Origin: Herbaspirillum sp. AP02
Lineage (GTDB): Bacteria; Pseudomonadota; Gammaproteobacteria; Burkholderiales; Burkholderiaceae_D
Direction: 5' to 3'
DNA: 64,000 nucleotides
NCBI RefSeq assembly: GCF_015767275.1
Contig: NZ_JADWMY010000005.1
Location: 1-64,000, forward strand
Of this stretch, positions 9,214 to 30,399 are shown piece after piece. Position numbers and translations under genes: made by a program. Below the pieces are notes generated by a model. The model was not told the DNA's origin. It searched no databases and was given only the letters and a program-made list of their open reading frames with translations. How positions within the stretch are numbered: position 1 is the stretch's first letter; each line of letters opens with the position of its first letter.

Positions 9214-10200
9214 ATGAGCACCGCCGCAATGACAGCCAGCAAAAAGATTTATGTAGCCGGACACCGGGGTATGGTTGGCTCCGCGATCGTCCGCCAACTG
9301 CGTAACGCAGGTCACGGCAATATTATTGTCAGGACACACGCGGAACTGGACCTGACCAGTCAGCAGGAAGTCAAGGAGTTCTTTGACCGTGAGCGGCCTG
9401 ACGAGGTCTACCTCGCTGCCGCCAAAGTGGGCGGCATTCATGCCAACAACACTTACCCGGCTGAGTTCATCCACCAAAATCTGATGATTCAGGCCAATGT
9501 CATCGATTCAGCCTTTCGCGCTGGCGTGACGAAACTGCTGTTCCTGGGTTCCAGCTGCATCTATCCCAAGTTTGCCGCACAGCCGATCAAGGAAGATGCA
9601 TTGCTGACCGGGCAACTTGAGCCGACCAACGAACCCTATGCGATAGCCAAGATTGCGGGGATTAAGCTCTGTGAAAGCTACAACCGCCAGTACGGCTCCT
9701 CCCATCAGATCGACTACCGCAGCGTCATGCCGACCAACCTCTACGGTGAGGGCGACAACTACCATCCGGACAATTCGCATGTGATTCCGGCATTGATCAG
9801 ACGTTTCCACGAGGCCAAACTGAACCAGAAACCCGAGGTGGTCGTATGGGGAAGCGGCACACCCATGCGCGAATTCCTGTACGTGGACGACATGGCGGCG
9901 GCCTGCGTACATGTCATGCAGCTTCCGGCAGAGGAATATCAGCGCCACACCACGCCGATGCTCAGCCACATCAACGTGGGCTACGGCAGTGACGTGAGCA
10001 TTCGAGAATTGGCAGCGCTGGTGGCAGAGACTGTAGGATATACGGGCGAATTGAAGTTCGACGCCAGCAAACCCGATGGCACACCCCGCAAACTGATGGA
10101 CAGTTCCCGCCTTGCGTCACTGGGATGGAAGGCCAAGGTCGACCTGCGACAAGGGCTCAACATTACCTATCGTGAATTTCTGAAAGTCTATTCGGCATGA
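9214..10200 (+). CDS. fcl: GDP-L-fucose synthase
   Basis: Fcl (WcaG) is the NADPH-dependent 3,5-epimerase/4-reductase that turns GDP-4-keto-6-deoxymannose into GDP-L-fucose. The 328-residue SDR protein shows [10 protein letters not shown] (nucleotide binding, about residues 16-25), LGSSCIYPK, the catalytic YAIAK motif and [10 protein letters not shown]. An alternative ATG at 9229 would remove five residues. The gene ends in an ATGA overlap with gmd, so the two are translationally coupled. Here fcl precedes gmd, whereas gmd-fcl is the more familiar order. It opens the long plus-strand O-antigen operon. Confidence 0.94.
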
Positions 10201-11300
10201 CAACCTCTTCCCAATCGATGCAAAAAGTGGCCCTGATCACCGGCGTCACCGGCCAAGACGGCTCCTATCTGGCGGAATTCCTGCTGGAAAAGGGTTACAT
10301 CGTGCACGGCATCAAGCGCCGTGCCAGCCTGTTCAACACCCAGCGGATCGACCACATCTACCAGGATCCGCATATCGAAAACAGCAATTTCAAATTGCAC
10401 TACGGCGACTTGAGCGACACTAGCAACCTGATTCGCATCATCCAGGAAACCCAGCCGGACGAGATTTACAATCTCGGCGCACAAAGTCACGTAGCAGTCA
10501 GCTTCGAAAGTCCGGAATACACCGCCGATGTCGATGCCATCGGTACGCTGCGGATCCTGGAAGCCATCCGTATTCTGGGTCTGGAAAAGAAGACCCGCTT
10601 CTACCAGGCCAGCACCAGCGAACTCTATGGTCTAGTACAGGAAACGCCACAGAGTGAGACCACCCCGTTCTATCCGCGCAGCCCCTATGCCGTTGCCAAG
10701 ATGTACGCCTACTGGATCACCGTCAACTACCGAGAAGCTTACGGAATCTATGCATGCAACGGCATCCTGTTCAACCACGAGAGCCCACGCCGCGGCGAGA
10801 CCTTCGTGACCCGCAAGATCACGCGTGGTCTGGCCAATATCAGCCAAGGCCTCGAAGAATGCCTGTATATGGGCAACATCGATGCATTGCGCGACTGGGG
10901 TCACGCCCGTGACTATGTACGCATGCAATGGCTGATGCTGCAGCAAGAGCAGCCAGAGGACTTCGTCATTGCCACCGGCGTACAGATCAGCGTGCGCTCG
11001 TTCATCGAGAAGACAGCTGCGGCCCTGGGTATGCAACTGACCTGGAAGGGCCAGGGTGTGGATGAGGTCGGATACTGGAGTGACCGTGAGATCGTTCGCA
11101 TCGACCCGCGTTACTTCCGCCCTACCGAAGTGGAGACCCTGCTGGGGGACCCAACCAAGGCAAAGGAAAAACTTGGCTGGGTACCGGAAATCACCGTCGA
11201 CCAGATGATCGAAGAGATGGTCGCTCACGATCTTTCTCAAGCCAAACAGCACGCATTGCTCAAGCAGCACGGTTTTGAAGTCCCTGTGAGCACCGAATGA
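10197..11300 (+). CDS. gmd: GDP-mannose 4,6-dehydratase
   Basis: Gmd converts GDP-D-mannose to GDP-4-keto-6-deoxy-D-mannose, the substrate of the upstream fcl product. The 367-residue protein has [19 protein letters not shown] at the N-terminus, the substrate-loop signature with [16 protein letters not shown], the catalytic YAVAK motif, and [16 protein letters not shown]. Length and motifs are typical. It starts inside the fcl stop codon (ATGA) and ends one base before rfbF. Together with manB at 4799 and an unseen GDP-mannose pyrophosphorylase it completes the GDP-fucose route, which fits the two fucosyltransferase-family genes downstream. Confidence 0.96.
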
Positions 11301-11301
11301 G

Positions 11302-12075
11302 ATGAAAGCAGTCATCCTGGCCGGCGGGCTTGGCACGCGCATCTCGGAAGAGACCGACATCAAACCCAAACCGATGGTAGAGGTAGGCGGCATGCCGATT
11401 CTCTGGCACATCATGAAGATCTATTCCCACTTCGGCGTGAATGACTTCATCATATGCTGCGGCTATCGCGGTTACGTGATCAAGGAGTATTTCGCCAACT
11501 ACTTCCTGCACATGTCGGACGTCACGCTGGACCTGAGTCAGAACAGCATGGAAGTCTTGCATCGCTACGCCGAGCCCTGGCGTATCACCTTGCTCAACAC
11601 TGGCATCGACACCATGACGGGTGGACGGCTAAAGCGTGCGGCTCCCTACCTGCAGGACGAGGAAGCTTTCTTCTTTACCTATGGCGATGGCGTGGGCAAC
11701 GTCGATATTGCGCAGCTTCTGGACTTCCATCGCTCACAGAAGACCTTGGCAACGCTGACCGCAACCTACCCTCCAGGCCGCTTCGGCGCGCTAGACCTTG
11801 CCGGAAACAAGGTCCGCAGTTTCAAGGAAAAACCCAAGGGTGACGGCAACATGATCAACGGCGGCTTTTTCGTGCTCTCGCCCAAGGTGATCGACCTCAT
11901 CGAGGGTGACCACACCGTGTGGGAAGCCGATCCGCTGGAAGCCTTGGCCACAAAAGGCGAACTGTCTGCGTTCCGCCATGAGGGCTTCTGGCAGCCGATG
12001 GATACCCTGCGTGACAAGAATTACCTTGAAAGCCTTTGGTGCGGCGGTAACGCACCTTGGAAGGTGTGGTCATGA
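11302..12075 (+). CDS. rfbF: Glucose-1-phosphate cytidylyltransferase
   Basis: RfbF joins CTP and glucose-1-phosphate into CDP-glucose, the first committed step toward CDP-3,6-dideoxyhexoses. The 257-residue nucleotidyltransferase has [19 protein letters not shown] (pyrophosphorylase signature), YGDGVGNVD (metal site) and MINGGFFVL, and matches the family's usual length. It follows gmd by one base and overlaps rfbG by an ATGA. It starts a six-gene block (11302-17163) with very short gaps or overlaps whose products look like one pathway. Confidence 0.95.
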
Positions 12076-13151
12076 ATCGCGCGTTTTGGGCTGGCCGCAG
12101 GGTTTTCATCACCGGTCATACTGGATTCAAAGGAAGTTGGCTGAGTTTGATGCTGCAAGACGCCCAAGCCGAAGTGACCGGCTTCGCATTGCCTCCACCG
12201 ACCGAGCCCAGCCTGTTCGAAGAAGCATCCGTCGCCACGGGCATGCGTTCGATCAACGGCGATATACGCGATCAGGCCTGCTTGTTCGACGCCCTGCGAC
12301 AATCTCGACCAGAAATCGTTCTGCATCTGGCTGCGCAGCCTCTGGTCGGATATTCGTACAGCCATCCGGTTGAGACCTACGCGACCAATGTCATGGGTAC
12401 GGTGCATTTGCTGGAAGCAGTGCGGCAGACCGGTAGCGTGCGCGCAGTGGTGAATGTCACTACCGACAAATGCTATGAAAACCGCGAGTGGTCCTGGCCC
12501 TACCGGGAAAATGAACGCCTGGGTGGCCATGACCCCTACAGCAACAGCAAGGCCTGTTCTGAACTTGTCAGTGCCTGTTTCCGAAGCTCGTTCTTCAGCC
12601 CGGAGAGGTTCGACAGTCACGGTGTCGGCTTGGCCACGGCGCGGGCGGGCAATGTCATTGGAGGCGGCGACTGGGCGGACAACCGCCTGATTCCGGATAT
12701 CCTGGCCGCCTTTGCCCGAGGCGAGCCCGCGGGCATACGGTCGCCGGCATCGGTACGGCCTTGGCAACACGTTCTCGAGCCGCTCGCAGGCTATGCGCGC
12801 TTGGCCGAACTGCTGCACGAGCAGGGCCCGCGGTTCGCGCAGGCCTGGAATTTCGGTCCCCATGCAGAAGACACCCGTCCCGTATCGTGGATTGCCGACA
12901 AGATGGCAGACCTCTGGGGTGACGGTGCCAGCTGGATCAATAGCGCATCTCTGCAACATCATGAGGCCGGGCAACTGCGCCTGGACAGCACCAGTGCGAT
13001 GCAGGAATTGAATTGGCAGCCCAGGCTGCGCCTGGAAGAAGCCTTGAAACTCGTCACAGAGTGGGCCAAACGACGTATGCAAGGCGCCGATATCCGTGCG
13101 CTTACCTTGGACCAGATCCGCCATTATGGATCGCTTACCCACGCAGATTAA
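12072..13151 (+). CDS. rfbG: CDP-glucose 4,6-dehydratase
   Basis: RfbG (AscB/DdhB type) oxidises CDP-glucose to CDP-4-keto-6-deoxyglucose with tightly bound NAD+. I place the start at the ATG at 12072, which overlaps the rfbF stop as ATGA. An earlier in-frame ATG at 12057 would add five residues. The 359-residue protein shows [13 protein letters not shown] at the N-terminus, [23 protein letters not shown], and the YSNSK catalytic motif, all characteristic of this family. It feeds the rfbH product three bases downstream. Confidence 0.95.
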
Positions 13152-13154
13152 GTC

Positions 13155-14477
13155 ATGCAACAAGCCAAAACCCTACAGATCCGCCAGCAGATCGCTGCTC
13201 TGGTCGATGAATACGCAGCCCTGGCGCTGGCTCCCCGGCCTTTCGAACCTGGCGTGACGACGATTCCTCCCTCGGGAAAACTGATCGATGCCGCAGAACT
13301 GAAAATGATGGTCGAGGCCTCACTGGATGGATGGCTCACGACTGGCCGCTTTAACGACCAGTTCGAAGCCGCGCTGGCTAGATTCATCGGTGTCGACTAC
13401 CTCATTACTGTCAATTCGGGCTCGTCGGCGAACTTGGTCGCCTTCTCCACCCTGACATCCCCCAAGCTCGGGGCTCGCGCCATCATTCCGGGCGACGAGG
13501 TCATCGGCGTGGCCGCCGGCTTTCCTACGACGGTCAACCCCATCCTCCAATTTGGTGCGGTGCCGGTCTTCGTCGACGTGGAAGTCGGAACGTACAATAT
13601 CGATGCCTCGAAGATCGAAGCCGCCATCACGCCACGAACCAAGGCCATCATGCTGGCCCATACCCTCGGCAATCCCTACAACCTGTCGATCATCACCTCC
13701 CTGTGCAAGAAATATAATCTGTGGCTGATCGAGGATTGCTGCGACGCGCTGGGATCAACCTATGACGGCAAGATGGTGGGGACCTTCGGCGATATCGGCA
13801 CTCTGAGCTTCTATCCTGCGCACCATATCACCATGGGCGAAGGCGGAGCGGTGTTCACCAACGATCCCCAGCTCAAGCAGATTGCCGAGAGTTTCCGGGA
13901 TTGGGGGCGTGATTGCTACTGCCCCCCGGGCAAAGACAATACTTGCGGCAAGCGCTTCTGCTGGAAAATGGGACGTCTACCCGAAGGCTACGACCACAAG
14001 TACACCTATAGCCACCTGGGCTACAACCTCAAGATCACGGACATGCAGGCGGCCTGCGGTCTTGCGCAACTGGCCAAAGCACCGCTCTTCATCGAACGGC
14101 GCAAAGCCAACTTCGCACATCTGAAACAGCGCCTGCAGAGCTGCACAGAATTCCTGATTCTTCCGGAAGCCACCGAAAACAGCCAGCCTTCCTGGTTCGG
14201 CTTCCCGATCACCCTGCGCGAGAACGCGCCGGTGAGCCGGGTGGATCTGCTGACCTATCTGGACCAGCAGAAAGTAGGAACTCGCCTGCTGTTTGCAGGG
14301 AACCTGACACGACAGCCCTACATGGAAGGCCGCCAGTATCGCGTCAGCGGCGACCTCACCAATACCGACATCGTCATGAACAATACATTCTGGATCGGTG
14401 TACAACCAGCGCTGGATCAGGCGATGTTGGACTATGCTGCCGACAAGATCGAACAGTTCCTGGGCGTAAGCTTCTGA
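13155..14477 (+). CDS. rfbH: CDP-4-keto-6-deoxyglucose 3-dehydratase (E1)
   Basis: RfbH/E1 is the PMP-dependent, [2Fe-2S]-containing enzyme that removes the C3 hydroxyl from CDP-4-keto-6-deoxyglucose. The 440-residue aminotransferase-fold protein has the diagnostic histidine replacing the PLP lysine ([13 protein letters not shown]223/H224). It also has the cluster cysteines C196, C254, C256 and C264, with the C-X57-C-X1-C-X7-C spacing described for E1. E1 normally needs the flavin/iron-sulfur reductase E3 (RfbI/AscD/DdhD) to finish the deoxygenation. No E3 gene is next to it, and the only related reductase in the window (44580-45605) belongs to another operon. Confidence 0.94.
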
Positions 14478-14480
14478 AGC

Positions 14481-15314
14481 ATGGAGCAAGCCATGAGCCC
14501 AAGTGCCGCCACCTTCAATGCCTCCCGATTGAGGCGTACCGTGCTGGACATGGCCTACGCAGGCGCCACCGTACACATTGCCTGCGCGTTTTCGATCATC
14601 GAACTGCTGGCAGTTCTGTACCGCTCATACGTGCGCTATCCCGACGACAATCCCGAGCACCCGGCACGTGACTTCCTGATCCTCAGCAAGGGCCATGGCG
14701 TCATGGCGCAATATGCCTGCTTGCTGGAAAAGCAGTGGCTATCGCGCCATGACATCGACCATTATTTTGCCGACGGATCGCTGCTAAAGGGCCTGTCTGA
14801 TTCCCGCGTCCCCGGCCTGGAGGTGTCGTCCGGATCCCTGGGCCATGGTCTGTCCGTCGGCGTAGGGCTCGCTCTGGCGGCCAAGCTGGATCAGACCGGA
14901 CAGCGCACCTTTGCATTGCTGGGCGACGGCGAACTCAACGAGGGAACGATCTGGGAAGCAGCGATGTTTGCTGCCCACCATCAGCTCAACGACCTGACCG
15001 TGCTTATCGATGCCAATGGTTTCCAGGCAATGGGCAAGACGGATGACATCATTGGTCTCGGCTCCATCGAAAGCAAATTCGCCAGCTTTGGATTCGAAAC
15101 GATGTCGGTAGACGGCCATGACGAACAACAGATCCATGCAGCGCTCGACACGCTTGGAAAGAGTCCTTCCACCGCGCCCAAGGCTCTGGTGGCACGTACC
15201 ATCAAGGGTCGCGGCGTGTCGTTCATGGAACATGACAATCGCTGGCATTACGCCCGCCTGGATGCGGACAGCTACGCCCGGGCGATCCACCAGCTATCGG
15301 AAGGAAGCGCATGA
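14481..15314 (+). CDS. Transketolase-like protein, N-terminal (TPP-binding) subunit
   Basis: The 277-residue protein matches the N-terminal half of transketolase. It has SKGHG near residue 69, GSLGHGLS near 118, and the TPP/metal motif GDG (148-150) followed by N179. It is half of a split enzyme: the next gene, overlapping by ATGA, is the other half. An alternative start at 14493 is preceded by a GGAG and may be the real one. Split transketolases occur in several sugar and antibiotic pathways. Between rfbH and an O-antigen exporter, a role in transferring a two-carbon ketol unit to a CDP-4-keto-deoxyhexose is my inference. A separate supply of pentose phosphates is less likely. Confidence 0.85.
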   Translation: MEQAMSPSAATFNASRLRRTVLDMAYAGATVHIACAFSIIELLAVLYRSYVRYPDDNPEHPARDFLILSKGHGVMAQYACLLEKQWLSRHDIDHYFADGSLLKGLSDSRVPGLEVSSGSLGHGLSVGVGLALAAKLDQTGQRTFALLGDGELNEGTIWEAAMFAAHHQLNDLTVLIDANGFQAMGKTDDIIGLGSIESKFASFGFETMSVDGHDEQQIHAALDTLGKSPSTAPKALVARTIKGRGVSFMEHDNRWHYARLDADSYARAIHQLSEGSA

Positions 15315-16231
15315 GAGCCGCGTTCACCGAAGCCCTGCTTGCATTGGCCAAATCCGACCCGCGCGTGCTCCTGCTCACGGGAGATCATGGCTATGCCCTG
15401 TTTGATGGCTTCCGTCGCGAATGTCCTCGCCAGTACATCAACGCCGGGATCGCCGAACAGAACATGGTAGGCATGGCGGCGGGTCTTGCCAAGGCGGGAT
15501 TCCGACCGTTTGTCTACGGCTTGAGCGCCTTCGTGCCGATCCGTGTGCTCGAACAGATCAAGATCGATGTGGCGCACGACAAGCTCCCTGTGGTCTTCCT
15601 GGGCGATGGCGCTGGCCTTGTGTACAGCCATCTTGGTACCAGCCACCAGTCCACCGAGGATATCGCCTGCACACGCGCCATCCCCCACCTGGCCATCTAT
15701 TCGCCAGCCGACCGATTCGAAATGAAGCTCTGCATGCAGATGGCCTACGATGCGCGCGGACCGGTTTACCTGCGCATGGGCAAGAGCGATCGTGGCGATG
15801 TCCACAGCGCACCGCTGACGGAGGCAAACGCTGGACAATGGCTTGCCCTCAAACAAGGGACTGCTGGAGCACCCGTGTTTGTGGCCACCGGATCCATGGC
15901 CGTCACGGCGCTGAGATTGGCGCGGGAAGCGTTTCCGCAAGCTTCTGTGTGGAGCGCTCCTTGCATCAAACCTGCTCCTGTGGAACAGATTGCAACCCTG
16001 TGCAGAGAGAGCGGCTGTGTCGTCACGCTGGAAGAACACTCCGTCATCGGTGGACTAGGCTCCCTGGTCAGCGAAATCGCTTGCACCATGGCGCCTGCGC
16101 GCGTGCTACGGATCGGCGTGGAGGATCGGTTTTCGAAGCACTGCGGCACTCACGCCTACCTGCTCAAGGAACACGAAATCGATGACGAATCGATTCGCCA
16201 CCGCCTTGAAGCATTGCTTCAAGGCGTCTGA
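15311..16231 (+). CDS. Transketolase-like protein, C-terminal subunit
   Basis: This 306-residue protein carries the pyrimidine-binding and C-terminal domains of transketolase. GIAEQNM near residue 46 holds the glutamate (E49) that activates TPP. LGTSHQSTEDIA near residue 114 is the usual loop, and the last 120 residues form the C-terminal domain. It starts within the stop codon of the N-terminal subunit gene (ATGA), which suggests equal amounts of the two parts. The active site would form between the two chains. The donor and acceptor cannot be read from the sequence; location argues for a nucleotide-sugar acceptor. Confidence 0.85.
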   Translation: MRAAFTEALLALAKSDPRVLLLTGDHGYALFDGFRRECPRQYINAGIAEQNMVGMAAGLAKAGFRPFVYGLSAFVPIRVLEQIKIDVAHDKLPVVFLGDGAGLVYSHLGTSHQSTEDIACTRAIPHLAIYSPADRFEMKLCMQMAYDARGPVYLRMGKSDRGDVHSAPLTEANAGQWLALKQGTAGAPVFVATGSMAVTALRLAREAFPQASVWSAPCIKPAPVEQIATLCRESGCVVTLEEHSVIGGLGSLVSEIACTMAPARVLRIGVEDRFSKHCGTHAYLLKEHEIDDESIRHRLEALLQGV

Positions 16232-16233
16232 TC

Positions 16234-17163
16234 ATGCGCATTGCTTTTCTCGGCGCGTCAAGCCAGATTGCGCGCGATCTGGCTCCCTTGTTCGCTGCAG
16301 TGCCCGGCCTCGCTCTGGAGCGCTTCCTTCGTGATCCCGATGGCGATGTAGCCTGGCGCACGCAAGCCGGCCTGCATGCGGTTCCAGCCGGCCATCATCT
16401 CCACGAATGGACGCAGCGCCCGGCGTTCGACGCCATCGTCAATTTCATCGGTGCCGGCAGTCCGGCCCGTGCCACAGGATTGGGCGCAAATATCCTGGAA
16501 CTGACCGCGCATTACGATGACATGGTCGTGGCCTATCTGCAGCGACATCGCGGTTGCCGCTACCTGTTCCTCAGCAGCGGCGCAACCTATGGTTCCGACT
16601 TCGTGGTACCGGCGCGTCACGACACAGTCGCAAGCTTCCCGGTCAATGCACTAGACCAGCGTCACTGGTATGGCTTGGCCAAGTTCCAGGCGGAGTGCCG
16701 GCACCGTGCCAGACCAGAACTGAACATATGCGACATCAGGGTCTTCAGCTACGTCAGCACCAGCCTGGACATGAACAGCCGGTTTCTGCTTGCGGATATC
16801 GTGCGGACGTTGGCAGAAGGGGGCACCCTCGATACGTCGAGCCAGGACATTCACCGCGACTACATCAGTCCGCCAGATCTCTTTGCGCTCATGCATAGCA
16901 TGTTGATGCACGCGCCATGCAATACCGCAGTGGATGTCTACAGCCTGGCACCTGTGGGCAAGATGCAATTGCTGGATCATCTGAGCAAACGCTTCGGATT
17001 GCGCTATGAGCTGGTGGAACGGGCCACCGGCCTCAACGCCACAGGCATCAAACCCAATTATTTTTCAGAAAACCGGAAAGCTGCCGAGTTCGGGTATCTG
17101 CCCCGGTTCGATTCGCTCTCAGCAGTCATCCATACTGTTGATCAACTTCTTTCCCAGTCCTGA
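16234..17163 (+). CDS. SDR-family NAD(P)-dependent reductase/epimerase of the CDP-sugar cassette
   Basis: The 309-residue protein is an extended SDR: Rossmann motif FLGASSQIA (residues 5-13), LSSGATYGSD around 113-122 with a catalytic serine, and Y146-x-x-x-K150 in YGLAK. It begins three bases after the transketolase C-subunit gene and is the last gene before the exporter. In the yersiniose pathway an SDR (YerF) reduces the keto group of the two-carbon branch added by YerE. By position this protein could play the equivalent role after the transketolase step. It could instead reduce C4 of a simpler dideoxyhexose (abequose/paratose type). Function is inferred from context; family is clear. Confidence 0.7.
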   Translation: MRIAFLGASSQIARDLAPLFAAVPGLALERFLRDPDGDVAWRTQAGLHAVPAGHHLHEWTQRPAFDAIVNFIGAGSPARATGLGANILELTAHYDDMVVAYLQRHRGCRYLFLSSGATYGSDFVVPARHDTVASFPVNALDQRHWYGLAKFQAECRHRARPELNICDIRVFSYVSTSLDMNSRFLLADIVRTLAEGGTLDTSSQDIHRDYISPPDLFALMHSMLMHAPCNTAVDVYSLAPVGKMQLLDHLSKRFGLRYELVERATGLNATGIKPNYFSENRKAAEFGYLPRFDSLSAVIHTVDQLLSQS

Positions 17164-17170
17164 TTCAGAA

Positions 17171-18031
17171 ATGAATATTCACCAAACCGAAAAACGCTGG
17201 ACCACCGTCATCGACGCCAACGCGAATCGCTCCGCCTCGCGCGTGCGCGAGCTCTGGAAGGCCCGCGATCTGATTTTCCTCTTCGTGCGACGGGACTTCG
17301 TGACGTTCTACAAGCAGACCATCCTCGGCCCGCTCTGGTTCTTCATCCAGCCGCTCATGACGACACTGGTCTTCACGGTGATCTTCGGACGCATTGCCAA
17401 TATTCCCACGGATGGAATTCCGCCGTTCCTGTTTTACATGTCGGGCATCATCCTGTGGACCTACCTTTCCTCTTGCATCGAGAAGACTTCGACGATCTTC
17501 GTCGAGCAACAGGCCGTTTTTTCAAAGGTCTACTTCCCGCGGCTGTCAGTCCCTGTCTCGATTGTCATCAGCAAGGTATTTTCCTTCGGCATCCAGTTCG
17601 TCACGTTTCTCGGTTTCCTCACCTATTACGCTGCGACCGGAGCCACCATTCATTTCCATTGGTGGGCCATTCTGGTCGTACCGTTGCTGCTGGCTTACGT
17701 TGCGATCCTGGCCATCTCGATCGGCCTGACGGTATCGGCCCTGACGACCAAGTACCGGGATCTGGCTTTCATGGTCACTTTCGGTGTCCAGCTGTGGATG
17801 TACGCGACCCCCATCGTGTATCCAATGTCGCAGGCACCGGACCGGCTCAAGTTGGCGCTAGCCTTCAATCCCATGTCGGCCCCGATCGAGATTTTCCGAT
17901 TCGCCTTCCTTGGCAATGGCCAGATCTTCGTTCCCGCGATCGTCGCCGGACTGGTCATTACCAGCGCGCTTGCCATCACTGGCGCCAGGCTGTTCAGTAG
18001 TGCTGAAAAGACTTTCGTCGACACGATCTAA
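17171..18031 (+). CDS. wzm: O-antigen ABC exporter, membrane subunit
   Basis: This is an ABC-2 type permease (Wzm/TagG/RfbA family), about 286 residues with some six membrane segments. The cytoplasmic N-terminus carries the typical ARDLIFLFVRRDF stretch before TM1, and YKQTILGPLWFFIQP is the family hallmark. Near the C-terminus is the WMYATPIVYP motif. I use the ATG at 17171 (MNIHQTEKRW...), eight bases after the SDR stop; the longer frame overlaps that gene. With the downstream ATPase it would export a complete undecaprenyl-PP-linked O-chain, so this O-antigen follows the ABC-dependent route. No wzx/wzy genes are seen. Confidence 0.92.
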   Translation: MNIHQTEKRWTTVIDANANRSASRVRELWKARDLIFLFVRRDFVTFYKQTILGPLWFFIQPLMTTLVFTVIFGRIANIPTDGIPPFLFYMSGIILWTYLSSCIEKTSTIFVEQQAVFSKVYFPRLSVPVSIVISKVFSFGIQFVTFLGFLTYYAATGATIHFHWWAILVVPLLLAYVAILAISIGLTVSALTTKYRDLAFMVTFGVQLWMYATPIVYPMSQAPDRLKLALAFNPMSAPIEIFRFAFLGNGQIFVPAIVAGLVITSALAITGARLFSSAEKTFVDTI

Positions 18032-18046
18032 ATCAAGTTAATCCGT

Positions 18047-19330
18047 ATGACCGACAAATCCCAGATCGCCATCGAAATCGACCGCATTTCCAAGGAATAC
18101 CGTCTTGGTACCATTGGTCACGGTACACTGTATCGCGACTTACAGAGCTGGTGGGCAAAGATCCGTGGCAGACCGGATCCGAATGCCCTGGTCTTCGATG
18201 AAGCCACGCCCGAAAAAAAGAATTTAAATCAACGTTTCAAGGCACTCGACGAGATTTCGCTCACCATCAACAAGGGCGACATCATCGGTGTCATTGGCCG
18301 TAATGGTGCGGGGAAATCCACGCTACTCAAGCTGCTCTCCCGCATCAGTGCGCCCAGCAGTGGCGAGATCCGCATCAATGGGAGAATTGCCAGCTTGCTC
18401 GAAGTCGGTACCGGCTTTCACGCCGAGCTGACAGGCAGAGAAAACGTCTACCTCAATGGCACCATTCTCGGCATGACCAAGGATGAGATCGACGGAAAAT
18501 TTGACGAAATCGTCGCCTTTTCGGAACTGGAAAAATTCATTGACACACCGGTCAAGCGCTATTCCTCCGGCATGACCGTGCGCCTCGCGTTTTCCATCGC
18601 AGCCCATCTTGAACCGGAAATCCTGATCGTCGACGAAGTGCTCGCGGTAGGCGATACATCGTTTCGCAAGAAGTGCATCGGCAAGATGCAGGGCATCTCT
18701 CGCGATCATTCCCGCACGATCCTGTTCGTCAGTCATGACATGGGAGCCATCCGCAACCTCTGCACGCGCGGCGTAGTCCTTGAGAAAGGACGCGTCATCT
18801 ATGACGGTGACGTTGAGACGGCAGTCAAAACCTACAGCGATATCAACAAGGATGACGACCGCAAGGATGGTGTCTTCGAGTTCGACAGCGGCAATAGCAA
18901 ATATCCGGTGCGCATCACCAAGGCGACGCTGTACAACGGTAAGGGTGAGGTCACATCACGCATCGAATCAATGGACTCCGTCGTGCTTAGCATCGATCTG
19001 GAGGGAGAACCGCCCCAGGGAGGATTCAACCTGGAGTGGCGCCTCTTTTCCTACCGTGGCGAGGCCCTTGCCTATGGCTCCAGCTATGCGTTGGATGCAA
19101 AGGTCTATGCCATCGGCGATCGCCAGATCCACTGCAAGATCGACAGCTTGCCGCTAGCGGCTGGGGAGTACCACATGACGCTGATGTTGCGCGTCTGGGG
19201 GCAGGAGGCATGGGATTACATTGAGCGCGCGGTACTCTTCGAGGTCCTTCCGCAGCCCCACGCCGAGACTGGATTTGAATACGTACTGGAAAGCGCCGGC
19301 CCCTTCCGTATTTCCCAGCATTGGTATTGA
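18047..19330 (+). CDS. wzt: O-antigen ABC exporter, ATPase subunit with C-terminal substrate domain
   Basis: The 427-residue ATPase has Walker A GRNGAGKST (about residues 84-92), signature SSGM, and Walker B ILIVDEVLAVGD. An insertion of some 40 residues precedes the Walker A region, as in many Wzt proteins. Residues from about 270 form the extra domain (Wzt C-terminal, PF14524) that in E. coli O8/O9a recognises the capped non-reducing end of the glycan. The presence of methyltransferase genes downstream fits a terminal modification read by this domain. It follows wzm by 15 bases. Confidence 0.93.
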   Translation: MTDKSQIAIEIDRISKEYRLGTIGHGTLYRDLQSWWAKIRGRPDPNALVFDEATPEKKNLNQRFKALDEISLTINKGDIIGVIGRNGAGKSTLLKLLSRISAPSSGEIRINGRIASLLEVGTGFHAELTGRENVYLNGTILGMTKDEIDGKFDEIVAFSELEKFIDTPVKRYSSGMTVRLAFSIAAHLEPEILIVDEVLAVGDTSFRKKCIGKMQGISRDHSRTILFVSHDMGAIRNLCTRGVVLEKGRVIYDGDVETAVKTYSDINKDDDRKDGVFEFDSGNSKYPVRITKATLYNGKGEVTSRIESMDSVVLSIDLEGEPPQGGFNLEWRLFSYRGEALAYGSSYALDAKVYAIGDRQIHCKIDSLPLAAGEYHMTLMLRVWGQEAWDYIERAVLFEVLPQPHAETGFEYVLESAGPFRISQHWY

Positions 19331-21766: not shown

Positions 21767-22477
21767 ATGCAGAACAAACCAACTAAACTGCCTATGCGAC
21801 ATTTCATACACTCGACCGCCATCCGCCTGAAGAAAAAACTGAGCGAAAAGTACTATCGCGAAGTTCTGGACATTCATGGACAGTACGGAGAAGACATCAT
21901 TCTTGACCGGCTCATGGGCAATCCGGCGAGCGGATTCTATGTGGATATTGGCGCAAACGATCCCAACAAGTTCAGCAATACGCTGCGTTTCTACCGTCGA
22001 GGATGGTCTGGCATCAACGTAGAACCCAATCCTGTCAAATTCCGCGAGATCTCTGCATGTCGCCCGCGTGATACCAATCTTAATGTTGGCATAGGTCCCG
22101 CACCCGCCATCTTGCCGTTTTATGTGATCGATCCGGATACGCTCTCGACCTTCGACCGGAAGGTCGCCGATATAGCCGTCAAGGACGGTTTTCATCTTGC
22201 CGAGACCATCGATGTCCAAGTCATCAAGATGGAAGACCTGATCACAGAACATTCCAAGGGTCGCGCGATTGATTTCATGTCCATCGACGTTGAGGGATTC
22301 GAAATGCAAGTTCTGTCGAGCAATGACTGGAACCGCTATCGTCCGCGCTTTGTGATGTTGGAGGTCAACCGCGCAGAACAGGAAATCGATGCGTTCATGT
22401 CCGGAGTGGGATACATCGATATCTTCAGCAATGGCACGAACAAGATCTATGCCCAGCGCGAATTCTCTCCCCAATGA
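21767..22477 (+). CDS. FkbM-family SAM-dependent methyltransferase
   Basis: The 236-residue protein has the FkbM-type layout: QYGEDIILDRL, then YVDIGANDPNKFSNT (SAM-binding motif I, about residues 58-72), INVEPNP, and the late FMSIDVEGFEMQVL. FkbM-type enzymes O-methylate hydroxyl groups on sugars and polyketides. In an ABC-exported O-antigen locus a methyl group may cap the chain or modify internal fucose or deoxyhexose residues. An ATG nine codons downstream (21794) is an alternative start. The gene overlaps the next by an ATGA. Confidence 0.85.
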   Translation: MQNKPTKLPMRHFIHSTAIRLKKKLSEKYYREVLDIHGQYGEDIILDRLMGNPASGFYVDIGANDPNKFSNTLRFYRRGWSGINVEPNPVKFREISACRPRDTNLNVGIGPAPAILPFYVIDPDTLSTFDRKVADIAVKDGFHLAETIDVQVIKMEDLITEHSKGRAIDFMSIDVEGFEMQVLSSNDWNRYRPRFVMLEVNRAEQEIDAFMSGVGYIDIFSNGTNKIYAQREFSPQ

Positions 22478-23610
22478 AGATCGCAGTCTGTAACGATATC
22501 GCTGAGTTCGGCGGCAACCGCTTGTTCGACAAGCAATGGGCGGCACGCTTTCCTGGTGCGGGCTGGGTCAGCGCACTGGGTGAACTGGCAGCGCAACGTG
22601 GCTGGGAAGTCGCCTCGGGTGATGTCGCGCTATCGCATGTGCAATGCGGCTACTGGAGTTCCAGCGATGTGCTGGTAGTGCAGGAACTGGACTCCACCTG
22701 GGGCACGCGACTGCGGGAATCAGGTGCGCGTCCGCTCCTGCTGACCTGCATGGAATCCCCACTCTACGCAAGCCTGTTCTTCGACCGGTGGCGCACGCTG
22801 GCCGCTGCTTTCCCGCATCACATGATACCGGGTGCTAGCGCCACGGAAGACCGGAGTGCGGGCTCCAGCACTGGCTGGCCCTTGCGCTTCCCCTGCTACT
22901 GGCAGCACCAGCCCGTCCATGCCGCCGACTGGGAGGAACGCAAGGACGAAGTGGTCCTGGTCGCTGCAAACAAATACTGGAGTCACGAGGACAAGGCCGT
23001 TATCCCGCCATGGACAAGGCCACGCAGCTTCCTCCAATGGCATCGCCAGAGCCGCGCCGTGCAATCCTCTCCCGCAAGGAAATATGCACAGCGGCAGCAA
23101 TTGCACGATGCCCGCCTCGATGCCATCGTCGCACTCACTCGCGAGAACAGGCTAGCCTTGTACGGCTCTGGCTGGGAGCGCCGTTCGGTCCTGCCAAAGC
23201 GCTGGCAGACCACCCTCGCCGCGCTGAACCTGCCCTATCACGGTAAGGTCGATGACAAGCTCGGTGTGCAGTCCGGCTACCGCTTCGCTCTCTGCATCGA
23301 AAACATCGCTTCGCCCGGTTACGTCACCGAGAAGATCATCGAAGCCTTGGTGGCACGCACGCTGCCCATCTACCTGGGAGCGCCCGACATAGGCGATTTT
23401 GTCCCGCCCGAGGCGTTCATCGATGCGCGCGCACTGGCGTCGATGGCAGCACTTCCGGATCGACTCAACATGGTCACCAGCAAGGAGGCCTCGGACATGA
23501 TCGCAGCGGGTCAACGCTTTCTGGCGAGCGAACAAGGCCGCTTGCACAGTTACGAAGGATTCGCAAAATGGGTGGAAAGTCTGGCTCTGGAGCAGGCCCA
23601 TGCCATTTGA
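22474..23610 (+). CDS. GT10-family (alpha-1,3/4-fucosyltransferase-like) glycosyltransferase
   Basis: The 378-residue protein carries the GT10 donor-binding signature. A stretch beginning YRFALCIENIASPGYVTEKI (near residue 270) is followed by EALVARTLPIYLGAPDI. In that family this region binds GDP-fucose. The GDP-L-fucose genes fcl and gmd in the same operon make fucose the likely donor. The N-terminal third is less conserved, as is usual for the acceptor-binding part. It starts in the FkbM gene's stop codon and overlaps the next glycosyltransferase gene by 11 bases. Confidence 0.8.
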   Translation: MKIAVCNDIAEFGGNRLFDKQWAARFPGAGWVSALGELAAQRGWEVASGDVALSHVQCGYWSSSDVLVVQELDSTWGTRLRESGARPLLLTCMESPLYASLFFDRWRTLAAAFPHHMIPGASATEDRSAGSSTGWPLRFPCYWQHQPVHAADWEERKDEVVLVAANKYWSHEDKAVIPPWTRPRSFLQWHRQSRAVQSSPARKYAQRQQLHDARLDAIVALTRENRLALYGSGWERRSVLPKRWQTTLAALNLPYHGKVDDKLGVQSGYRFALCIENIASPGYVTEKIIEALVARTLPIYLGAPDIGDFVPPEAFIDARALASMAALPDRLNMVTSKEASDMIAAGQRFLASEQGRLHSYEGFAKWVESLALEQAHAI

Positions 23611-28190: not shown

Positions 28191-29507
28191 GTGAAAATCT
28201 TATTGTGCTGTGAGTTCTTCTATCCCAGTGTCGGGGGGGCGCAGGAAGTGGTAAGGCAGCTGGCTACTCGGCTGGCGCGGTGGGGCCATGATGTGTCTGT
28301 CGCGACATCGTTTCTGGCCAACCGGACTTCCGACGTTCACGAGGGCGTCAAGATCATCTCGTTCAATATCAGTGGCAACTGGGCCAACGGGCTGATGGGA
28401 GAAGTTCAGTCTTATCGTCAGTTCATGCTAGAAGGGCGGTTTGACCTAGTCTTCATCTATGCCGCACAGCAATGGACGCTCGATGCGATTCTCGACGAGC
28501 TGCCTCGCATCAAAGCACGCAAGGTGCTGGTGCCGTGTGGCTACTCCGGTCTACCCGATCCCGGCTACGCCAGATATTTCGCACGCCTTCCCGCGGTACT
28601 GAGCTGCTTCGACGCGCTGGTCTATCACGCCTATGATTACCGTGATCACCACTTTGCGAAGGAACATCAGCTGAACAACTCCTTCTTCATCCCCAATGCG
28701 GCGGACGACATCGAGTTCTCCAGCTCATCCGGCGCCGATGCCCGCTCGGCTCTGGAGCTGGCGCCCGACGAAGTGGTCTTGCTGACGGTCGGCTCGCTCA
28801 ATGGCGCCAAAGGTCACCTGGAAGTGGCCGAAGCGTTCTCCAAGGCAGTCCTGCTGCGCAGTGCGACGCTCATCCTCAATGGGAATGACATGCCCCCCAC
28901 CGGGGACAATATGATGTCGAACGTCCGCAAACTGGTGACACAGATGAAAAGCCGCGGAATATTGCACACCGCGCGCTTTGTGCTGGGAAGACTATTGCAT
29001 GCCGTCGGCCTGCGCCCCGACTATTTTGACCGGCTTGAACGCGTGATGAAGGAAGTCAACGGCAGGCCCGCTGCGGGAAAGCGCATCATCCGGACCAACC
29101 TTGCGCGCAGAGAACTGATCGAGACCTTCCTCGCGTCGGACCTCTTCGTCTTCGCCTCGATCATTGAATACTCGCCCTTGGTGCTGTTCGAAGCTTGCGC
29201 GGCGGGACTACCGTTCCTGACCGTCCCGGTTGGCAACTCACGGGAGATCGTAGAGTGGACCCAGGGCGGAGAGCTGTGCCCGGCCAAGGTCGATGCACAC
29301 GGTTTTACGCGGGTCGATACGACCGAGCTCGCCCGGCGCATCTCAGACTTGGCAGCAGATCCGGAGCGCCTGGCTGCGCTAGCTGCCAATGGTCGGAAGG
29401 CCTGGCGCGAACGCTACAACTGGGAGACCATCTCCAGGGAATATGAAGCCCTGTTTGCCAGACTGACCCGTCCTCATTCCTCCACAGATTCAACTCATGA
29501 AAAATAA
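28191..29507 (+). CDS. Glycosyltransferase family 4
   Basis: The gene appears to start with GTG at 28191, two bases after the previous stop; the protein then begins VKILLCCEFFYPSVGGAQE, the typical GT4 N-terminal loop. The 438-residue product has TVGSLNGAKGHLEVAEAF and a C-terminal IIEYSPLVLFEACAAGLPF, with the E-x7-E donor-site pattern. A region of about 70 residues between them (LRSATLILNG to RRELIETF) is longer than usual. The gene overlaps the next one by 11 bases. Donor unknown. Confidence 0.8.
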   Translation: MKILLCCEFFYPSVGGAQEVVRQLATRLARWGHDVSVATSFLANRTSDVHEGVKIISFNISGNWANGLMGEVQSYRQFMLEGRFDLVFIYAAQQWTLDAILDELPRIKARKVLVPCGYSGLPDPGYARYFARLPAVLSCFDALVYHAYDYRDHHFAKEHQLNNSFFIPNAADDIEFSSSSGADARSALELAPDEVVLLTVGSLNGAKGHLEVAEAFSKAVLLRSATLILNGNDMPPTGDNMMSNVRKLVTQMKSRGILHTARFVLGRLLHAVGLRPDYFDRLERVMKEVNGRPAAGKRIIRTNLARRELIETFLASDLFVFASIIEYSPLVLFEACAAGLPFLTVPVGNSREIVEWTQGGELCPAKVDAHGFTRVDTTELARRISDLAADPERLAALAANGRKAWRERYNWETISREYEALFARLTRPHSSTDSTHEK

Positions 29508-30399
29508 CGTCTCCGTTGCCCTTCACGGCGGCCTGGGCAATCAGCTCTTCCAGTTCGCCACCGGGCTATCAGTGGCACGCAAGCACCATGTTCCGTTGAC
29601 GCTGGACCTGACCTGGTTCGACATGGCTCCGCATCTGCCCAATACGACTGTGCGCAGTTATGCACTGGCGCCCTTCGGCGTGGACGTGCCGACTTACCGC
29701 AAGCCGACGCCAGAAGGCTCACGCGTGCGCTTCTTCATCTATCGCGCCATGCGCAAATTGCAGCGCCATCTTGGTATCAGCGCGCAGGGCCTGACCGCTC
29801 TGAACGAAAAGAGCTTCCGCTTCGACCCCCGTGTTTTGGAAACGGCACCACCGCTGCACTTGTTCGGCTATTGGCAGTCTCCCTTGTATTTTGATCGCAT
29901 CCGCCCGGAACTGACGGCGATGCTGGGCACGCCGCGTCAGATGAATGCAGGCACTTCCCGGTTACATGAACAGATCCGCAACACCGATGCGATCTGCATC
30001 CACGTGCGCCGCGGCGACTACGTGACCAACCAGCAGGCCGCTTCCACCCATGGTCTTTGCGACATGAGCTACTACCATACCGGCCTGGCACATGTCCGGC
30101 AGGGGCTTTCGGCACCACACGCCTTCCTCTTTTCAGACGATGCGCAATGGGTGCGTGCCAATCTGAAGCTGGATATCCCCATGACGGTGGTGGATGTCAA
30201 TGGCCCGGATGACGCGCACCAAGACCTGTGGCTGATGGCTGCGTGCAAGCGCTTCGTCATCGCCAACAGCTCTTTGAGCTGGTGGGGCGCGTGGCTGTCC
30301 GAGGCGCAGTCAAAGGTCGTCGTGGCGCCCAGCAAATGGTTTGCCGATGACAAATTGGATACCACCGATCTCATACCGCCCGACTGGCTACGCGTATAA
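29497..30399 (+). CDS. GT11-family alpha-1,2-fucosyltransferase-like protein
   Basis: The 300-residue protein matches family GT11. It starts with VALHGGLGNQLFQFATGLS, and has the GDP-fucose site HVRRGDYVTN near residue 169, FLFSDDAQWV near 210 and SSLSWWGAWLS near 262. Bacterial members (FutC, WbsJ, WbiQ) make alpha-1,2-fucosyl linkages. Together with the GT10 gene it suggests at least two fucose linkages in the O-chain. It overlaps the previous gene by 11 bases. Confidence 0.88.
   Translation: MKNNVSVALHGGLGNQLFQFATGLSVARKHHVPLTLDLTWFDMAPHLPNTTVRSYALAPFGVDVPTYRKPTPEGSRVRFFIYRAMRKLQRHLGISAQGLTALNEKSFRFDPRVLETAPPLHLFGYWQSPLYFDRIRPELTAMLGTPRQMNAGTSRLHEQIRNTDAICIHVRRGDYVTNQQAASTHGLCDMSYYHTGLAHVRQGLSAPHAFLFSDDAQWVRANLKLDIPMTVVDVNGPDDAHQDLWLMAACKRFVIANSSLSWWGAWLSEAQSKVVVAPSKWFADDKLDTTDLIPPDWLRV

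Follow-up and report, generated by a model that had tools for sequence, protein, structure and literature searches.

Based on a computational analysis of 64,000 nucleotides of Herbaspirillum sp. AP02 (NCBI RefSeq assembly GCF_015767275.1, contig NZ_JADWMY010000005.1, positions 1 to 64,000 of the forward strand; hereafter the window), we propose that a six-gene cassette at 11302..17163 makes a CDP-linked, 4-C-branched 3,6-dideoxyhexose of the yersiniose type, with a pyruvate-derived branch, for the O-antigen. We estimate the probability of this reading of the sequence at about 0.55. The cassette joins the precursor genes rfbF, rfbG and rfbH to the two halves of a split transketolase, here termed TktN and TktC, and to a short-chain dehydrogenase/reductase (SDR). 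The proposal is carried by the observed gene order and gene families, the conserved association of these genes, the exchange of ligases beside one reductase family and the pattern of active-site residues.

11302..12075, + strand: rfbF/ddhA, glucose-1-phosphate cytidylyltransferase (TIGR02623, 453 bits, cut-off 300)
12057..13151, + strand: rfbG/ddhB, CDP-glucose 4,6-dehydratase (TIGR02622, 470 bits, cut-off 278; the in-frame ATG at 12072 is a possible start)
13155..14477, + strand: rfbH/ddhC, CDP-4-keto-6-deoxyglucose 3-dehydrase, E1 (NF011936, 754 bits, cut-off 423; Cys 196/254/256/264 and AHHITMG)
14481..15314, + strand: tktN, diphosphate-binding half of the split transketolase (PF00456; Leu105 at the place of His100 in E. 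coli numbering)
15311..16231, + strand: tktC, pyrimidine-binding and C-terminal half (PF02779, PF02780; 6yaj, 1e-45; Glu411 and His473 kept)
16234..17163, + strand: extended SDR, proposed branch-ketone reductase (PF01370)

In the pathway that we envisage, RfbF, RfbG and RfbH, together with an unlinked electron-donor reductase, would provide CDP-4-keto-3,6-dideoxy-D-glucose. TktN and TktC would assemble into a thiamine-diphosphate heterotetramer in place of YerE, decarboxylate pyruvate and add the resulting two-carbon unit to the C4 ketone. The product of this step would be a tertiary alcohol that bears an acetyl branch. Reduction of the acetyl ketone by the SDR would then leave a 1-hydroxyethyl branch and so a yersiniose-type sugar with no extra hydroxyl, and Wzm/Wzt would export the branched sugar as part of the O-chain. 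In this scheme the assembly of the subunits, the acceptor, the donor, the product and its stereochemistry are what we infer.

Gene families, recurrence and ligase exchange beside rfbH

As the original prediction had described, all six genes lie on the + strand, nearly touching, in the order rfbF-rfbG-rfbH-tktN-tktC-SDR, and are followed by an exporter. The spacings from rfbF to the SDR are -19 (-4 if rfbG starts from the ATG at 12072), +3, +3, -4 and +2 bases. The genes for the yersiniose-type precursor (CDP-glucose formation, 4,6-dehydration and 3-dehydration) are present. RfbH displays a C-X57-C-X1-C-X7-C spacing and, within AHHITMG, a His at the place of the aminotransferase Lys, features that we take to be marks of an E1 3-dehydrase. 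TktN carries the diphosphate-binding (PP) domain on one chain and TktC the pyrimidine-binding (Pyr) and C-terminal domains on the other, which is the layout of split-gene transketolases. Among solved structures, both halves find their best match in the split-gene enzyme of Carboxydothermus hydrogenoformans (6yak, 1.7e-55, and 6yaj, 1e-45), whose fold is shared by a structure model of TktN, the models having been built for single chains. Transketolase models score above pyruvate dehydrogenase models for TktN (235 versus 46 bits) and for TktC (137 versus 27 bits). A DXS-like identity of TktC was considered because of good scores with DXS models, but the other split pair of the genome scores likewise and the resemblance was given no weight. 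The SDR matches the general Pfam Epimerase model only, with no NCBIfam family and, at E 0.001, no solved chain matched by sequence; its structural matches are closely bunched in score, and the fold indicates an extended SDR and nothing narrower.

The search of genomes for this gene order, which had been put forward as a check, shows that the cassette recurs. TktN has matches of at least 59% identity in 4 of 399 genomes of the order sample, its own included, the next best match being 41% identical; at E 1e-70 it is found in 1 of 369 genomes of the class sample, which is its own. In the family sample the TktN clade (at least 58% identity) occupies 11 places in 10 of 294 genomes. All ten lie among the 44 of the 294 that possess rfbH (Fisher 2e-9, an indicative figure as the genomes are related), so the association of TktN with rfbH goes beyond chance. 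We mapped 14 distinct clade loci, namely the window, L004 (the same place as L064), L045, L046, L047 and L065 to L073. Every one of them contains rfbH and a reductase and 13 contain rfbF and rfbG, in surroundings that differ; the one without these two genes, L066, is a 3.4-kb contig that ends within rfbH. Herbaspirillum sp. LeCh32-8 (L004), the closest named relative with the cassette, has an identical gene order. The reductase belongs to the window's SDR family in nine loci and to another family, SDR2, in five, and the orders rfbH-tktN-tktC-SDR, rfbH-SDR-tktN-tktC and rfbH-SDR2-tktN-tktC all occur. Because both gene order and reductase family vary among the clade loci, the cassette appears to move as a module with interchangeable reductases. 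In L047 (G103:C68), rfbH is 55% identical and lies upstream of rfbF, and the tktN of a second split pair is found about 11 kb from that of the cassette.

What occupies the same position in other rfbH loci? All 48 rfbH places found in the 294 family genomes were mapped, and 36 of them were fetched with flanks of about 4 kb on the 5' side of rfbH and at most 7 kb on its 3' side. A split transketolase is present in 15 (11 of the window's clade and four of another), a YerE-like thiamine enzyme in 10 and neither in 23. A reductase of one of three families (at least 37% identity) is found no more than 7 kb downstream of rfbH in 15/15 transketolase loci, 7/10 YerE-like loci and 1/23 of those with neither (Fisher 1.7e-9, again indicative, related strains not being independent). 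Contig ends cut three of the ligase-free loci at 1640 (L083), 4963 (L113) and 1 (L114) bases downstream of rfbH; without them the pairing is 22/25 versus 0/20 (5.6e-10), and for the YerE-like loci alone it is 7/10 versus 1/23 (2e-4). Of the 25 loci with a ligase, 12 (seven with transketolase, five YerE-like) contain an SDR of the window's family, as against none of the 23 others. In L086 the YerE-like enzyme aligns without gaps and at full length with 8rph over 610 residues (1179 bits) and is followed by an SDR 46% identical to that of the window; 8rph is the crystallised JanthE, as named in a published paper. The SDRs of five of the ten YerE-like loci are 42-46% identical to the window's. One SDR from a transketolase locus, that of L067, is nested in a YerE-linked group of the SDR tree (forks 95/92 and 100/99).

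Since YerE-like ligases adjoin rfbH in ten loci, five of them with the same SDR family, and since the SDR tree is interleaved, the transketolase pair very probably takes the slot of YerE, transferring two carbons to the C4 ketone of a CDP-keto-dideoxy sugar. The genomic evidence makes it highly probable that TktN and TktC act together with RfbFGH as the branching ligase. The earlier assignment of the SDR as the matching ketoreductase is borne out by the same genomic inference, as its family recurs in YerE/JanthE-like loci. A further arrangement was noted next to the rfbFGH genes of L098 (5330-7965), where an HpcH/HpaI aldolase immediately precedes a YerE-like enzyme and a member of the window's SDR family; this looks like a longer-branch system in which the aldolase makes the donor.

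Could the pair instead be a regular transketolase providing sugar phosphates for a different O-antigen sugar, its place beside rfbFGH being due solely to mosaicism of the locus? By family and fold it is a transketolase, which speaks for this idea. However, rfbH stands beside the clade in 14/14 mapped loci, the same reductase family serves loci with YerE-like ligases, the substrate-binding residues are changed (see below), and the host genome already has a full-length transketolase (988.8 bits, above the cut-off). We therefore regard this explanation as very improbable, the least probable of those weighed here. Given the full-length copy, the split pair is not the sole transketolase of the host, and a housekeeping function was rejected.

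Active-site residues and the choice of donor

What do the active-site residues say about the donor? The alignment comprised the 14 clade loci, six rfb-linked loci with another type of split transketolase, 38 other split transketolases and the genome's own transketolase; for the residue counts three duplicate loci were dropped, and L037 lacks TktC in its stretch. Positions were assigned by motif and carry E. coli numbers. Residues for thiamine diphosphate and proton relay (His26, His66, GDG/Asn, His261, Glu411 and His473) are kept in 14/14 clade loci. All five donor- and phosphate-side residues of transketolase (EC 2.2.1.1) are changed, likewise in 14/14: His100 to Leu in TktN and, in TktC, Ser385 to Ala, His461 to Gly, Asp469 to Leu and Arg520 to Lys (Ala29, Gly100, Leu108 and Lys158 of the window's protein). 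Ser385, His461 and Arg520 presumably bind the substrate phosphate. Leu at the place of His100 extends to 120/120 TktN homologues, the best 120 of 7996 matches. In the other rfb-linked type the position is His in 6/6, and among the remaining split transketolases in 34/38 (Ser in two, Glu in one and Ile in one). The other rfb-linked type shares the changes at His461, Asp469 and Arg520 (Asp469 is Ala in one of the six). At most, these three changes would point to a non-phosphorylated acceptor.

The substitution at His100 has a counterpart in protein engineering. According to PMC7661550, donor binding involves His66, His100, Gly114 and His473, position 100 is Phe in DXPS, and H100L in the Geobacillus (G. 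stearothermophilus) transketolase gives a third of the DXPS activity with pyruvate. PMC10787763 describes a wild-type E. coli transketolase that does not use pyruvate and a variant, 6M, with six changes including H100L and D469T, that does. On its aligned residues the TktN clade is thus a natural carrier of H100L, a substitution that engineers chose for pyruvate acceptance. As Leu stands at the donor-binding His100, as in the engineered pyruvate-accepting transketolases, an acetyl branch seems likelier than a hydroxyacetyl branch. If the pair does serve RfbFGH as the branching ligase, pyruvate would be the probable donor, a step held less firmly than the ligase role itself.

The original prediction had a transketolase-like enzyme transfer two carbons from a ketose phosphate. 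The pair as a carbon-carbon ligase acting with RfbFGH gains support from the genomic inference, whereas a hydroxyacetyl unit from a ketose phosphate becomes doubtful with Leu at His100 and a TktC without Ser385, His461, Asp469 and Arg520. Likewise, a yersiniose-like, CDP-linked branched sugar remains the favoured product, but the one additional hydroxyl foreseen for it is doubtful, Leu being present in all 14 loci. In its broader form, the alternative is that the pair delivers hydroxyacetyl to C4, with a ketose phosphate or hydroxypyruvate as donor, and that the SDR produces a 4-C-(1,2-dihydroxyethyl) branch. The transketolase ancestry and fold of the pair agree with it, such a transfer has been proposed for miharamycin and amipurimycin (2025 review), and the six other rfb-linked split transketolases keep His100; the loss of that His throughout the clade and its 120 best homologues, together with the loss of Ser385, His461 and Arg520, makes it unlikely for the cassette.

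A different 2-oxo acid, for instance 2-oxobutyrate or a longer hydroxylated acid, would lead to an extended branch like that of erwiniose or caryophyllose. The YerE-like enzymes ErwE, MMAR_2332 and JanthE accept longer acids according to the 2025 review, and the aldolase beside the YerE-like enzyme of L098 fits such a donor. Against this, the window has no spare gene between rfbF and the SDR to make it (the relatives' genes outside the cassettes not being annotated), and the H100L variants of PMC10787763 and PMC7661550 were made for pyruvate. We consider this alternative improbable.

Several points weigh against the pyruvate-derived, yersiniose-type branch that we prefer. The choice of pyruvate would rest mainly on one residue, His100 to Leu; the changes at His461, Asp469 and Arg520 are common to many split transketolases that keep His100 and give no pointer to pyruvate. 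According to PMC10787763, 6M has five changes besides H100L and is slow (kcat 0.22/s). The role of the reductase in JanthE/YerE clusters is itself inferred. Among the YerE-like loci, L102 has no reductase of at least 37% identity and L106 only a 30% match to SDR2, and in the YerE-like locus on contig C7 of the same genome SDR2 lies about 13 kb from rfbH, outside the 7 kb. In L113 (G791:C115), the single exception among the 23 ligase-free loci, rfbFGH and SDR2 are present with no match to a transketolase or YerE-like enzyme in the 3.9 kb up to the contig end; since the ligase of its kin L111 and L112 starts 2.3-2.4 kb after SDR2, the contig cut explains this only partly. A dedicated E3 reductase gene for RfbH is absent from the cassette.

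The rfb-linked split transketolases that keep His100 are found in L051, L074, L079, L081, L089 and L096. They accompany rfbFGH, are 39-45% identical to TktN, also keep Ser385 and pair with SDR2 or SDR2b; in L089 the transketolase is on the strand opposite rfbFGH, in convergent orientation. In a tree of 59 joined TktN-TktC pairs, both types form single groups, separate from each other (100/100 each, ungrouped rows not counted); the tree contains a number of long branches, including one that meets the clade of the window. By its residues the His100-keeping type fits the hydroxyacetyl idea better than the window's type, and if His100 sets the donor, its loci are where the hydroxyacetyl sugar would be expected. 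As a tentative extension we suggest that two kinds of O-antigen split transketolase branch CDP-4-keto-3,6-dideoxyglucose: an H100L kind that would use pyruvate and make yersiniose-type sugars, convergent with YerE, and a His100 kind that would use a ketol donor and make undescribed 4-C-(1,2-dihydroxyethyl) sugars. If this is true, evolution and protein engineers have reached an identical donor switch. Another group of split transketolases, with His100 kept and Asp469 changed to Leu, was seen in Pseudoalteromonas, Marinomonas, Colwellia and Thalassotalea (L006-L009 and L011-L013); in L008 and L011 the next genes resemble, by eye only, a HAD phosphatase, a kinase and a zinc alcohol dehydrogenase.

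The surrounding O-antigen locus and the host genome

Genes for GDP-L-fucose synthesis lie 5' of the cassette, and on its 3' side an ABC-2 permease and a Wzt-like ATPase are followed by glycosyltransferases, including members of families 10 and 11. The window locus is an ABC-exporter O-antigen locus.

9214..10200, + strand: fcl, GDP-L-fucose synthase, for another sugar of the same O-antigen locus (NF047922, 525 bits)
10197..11300, + strand: gmd, GDP-mannose 4,6-dehydratase, for another sugar of the same O-antigen locus (TIGR01472, 590 bits)
17171..18031, + strand: wzm-type ABC-2 permease of the polysaccharide exporter (PF01061; longest open reading frame from 17006)
18047..19330, + strand: wzt-type ATPase with a Wzt_C carbohydrate-binding domain (PF00005, PF14524)

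The start given for the permease is the second in-frame ATG of its reading frame, 7 bases past the SDR stop. The family 10 and 11 glycosyltransferases, at 22474-23610 and 29497-30399, belong to fucosyltransferase families; their presence in one locus with gmd and fcl suggests that the O-chain also bears L-fucose.

Three YerE-like queries gave no match in positions 1-30000 of the window, where the split transketolase holds that slot. Elsewhere in the genome, C7 carries at 256.2-274.6 kb (L048, L049) an rfbG (51%), an SDR2 (39%), a YerE-like enzyme (40%), an rfbH (77%) and an rfbF (65%); this more loosely arranged locus is probably a further branched-sugar system, of the classical YerE kind. C13 carries at 43.8-45.6 kb (L050) one more pair of split transketolase genes, in which Ser replaces His100 and Tyr replaces His26; it lies beside genes that resemble, by eye, a TRAP transporter and is probably catabolic. 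As electron donor for RfbH, an unlinked Fer2/FNR-type protein (L125) is a weak candidate, being under the cut-off of the best 25 of 29 matched NCBIfam models in a scan of 2 of the 7 PF00970 places of the genome.

Relation to known branching systems

The idea that transketolases make branched sugars is not wholly new, as it had been proposed earlier for miharamycin and amipurimycin. For such a route in O-antigens none appears among the matches listed in searches of the open-access literature, judged by titles and the starts of abstracts, and the word 'transketolase' is absent from the text of PMC9834719, on Oxalobacteraceae O-antigens. The 2025 review lists 13 candidate branching transketolases, all split-gene, from Streptomycetes and none characterised in vitro, and it assigns YerE-like enzymes to sugars of the cell surface, for example those of lipopolysaccharide. 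The miharamycin and amipurimycin split transketolases of Streptomyces, compared here by description only, are likewise proposed to branch a keto sugar; they serve antibiotic nucleosides with a proposed hydroxyacetyl donor, whereas the cassette would serve an O-antigen. The C. hydrogenoformans enzyme (6yak, 6yaj) shows the same two-chain division as TktN and TktC but keeps His100, Ser385, His461, Asp469 and Arg520, which are Leu, Ala, Gly, Leu and Lys in the cassette; it is active with hydroxypyruvate and aldehydes according to PMC7661550. AviB1/B2 and Pau11/12 (proposed) and KbDH (shown) are, according to published work, two-subunit thiamine enzymes that add acetyl from pyruvate, as TktN and TktC would; they belong to the alpha-ketoacid dehydrogenase group, whereas TktN and TktC score higher with transketolase models.

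There is a close likeness to the yersiniose pathway (DdhABC, YerE and a reductase), JanthE and ErwE, which like the cassette combine rfbFGH precursor genes with a thiamine-diphosphate carbon-carbon ligase. In the JanthE-type loci L086, L090 and L092 the window's SDR family also comes after the ligase. YerE-like enzymes are single-chain and acetolactate-synthase-like (PF02776/PF00205/PF02775 in L086 and L098), whereas the ligase of the cassette is a two-chain transketolase; the cassette would be a yersiniose-type pathway with a different ligase. It would add a two-gene family outside Streptomycetes, with a conserved partner reductase and a likely supply of the acceptor through RfbFGH. It opens two questions, whether a transketolase can build tertiary alcohols from ketones and whether H100L is a natural determinant of the donor, and one residue might also allow the prediction of an O-antigen sugar.

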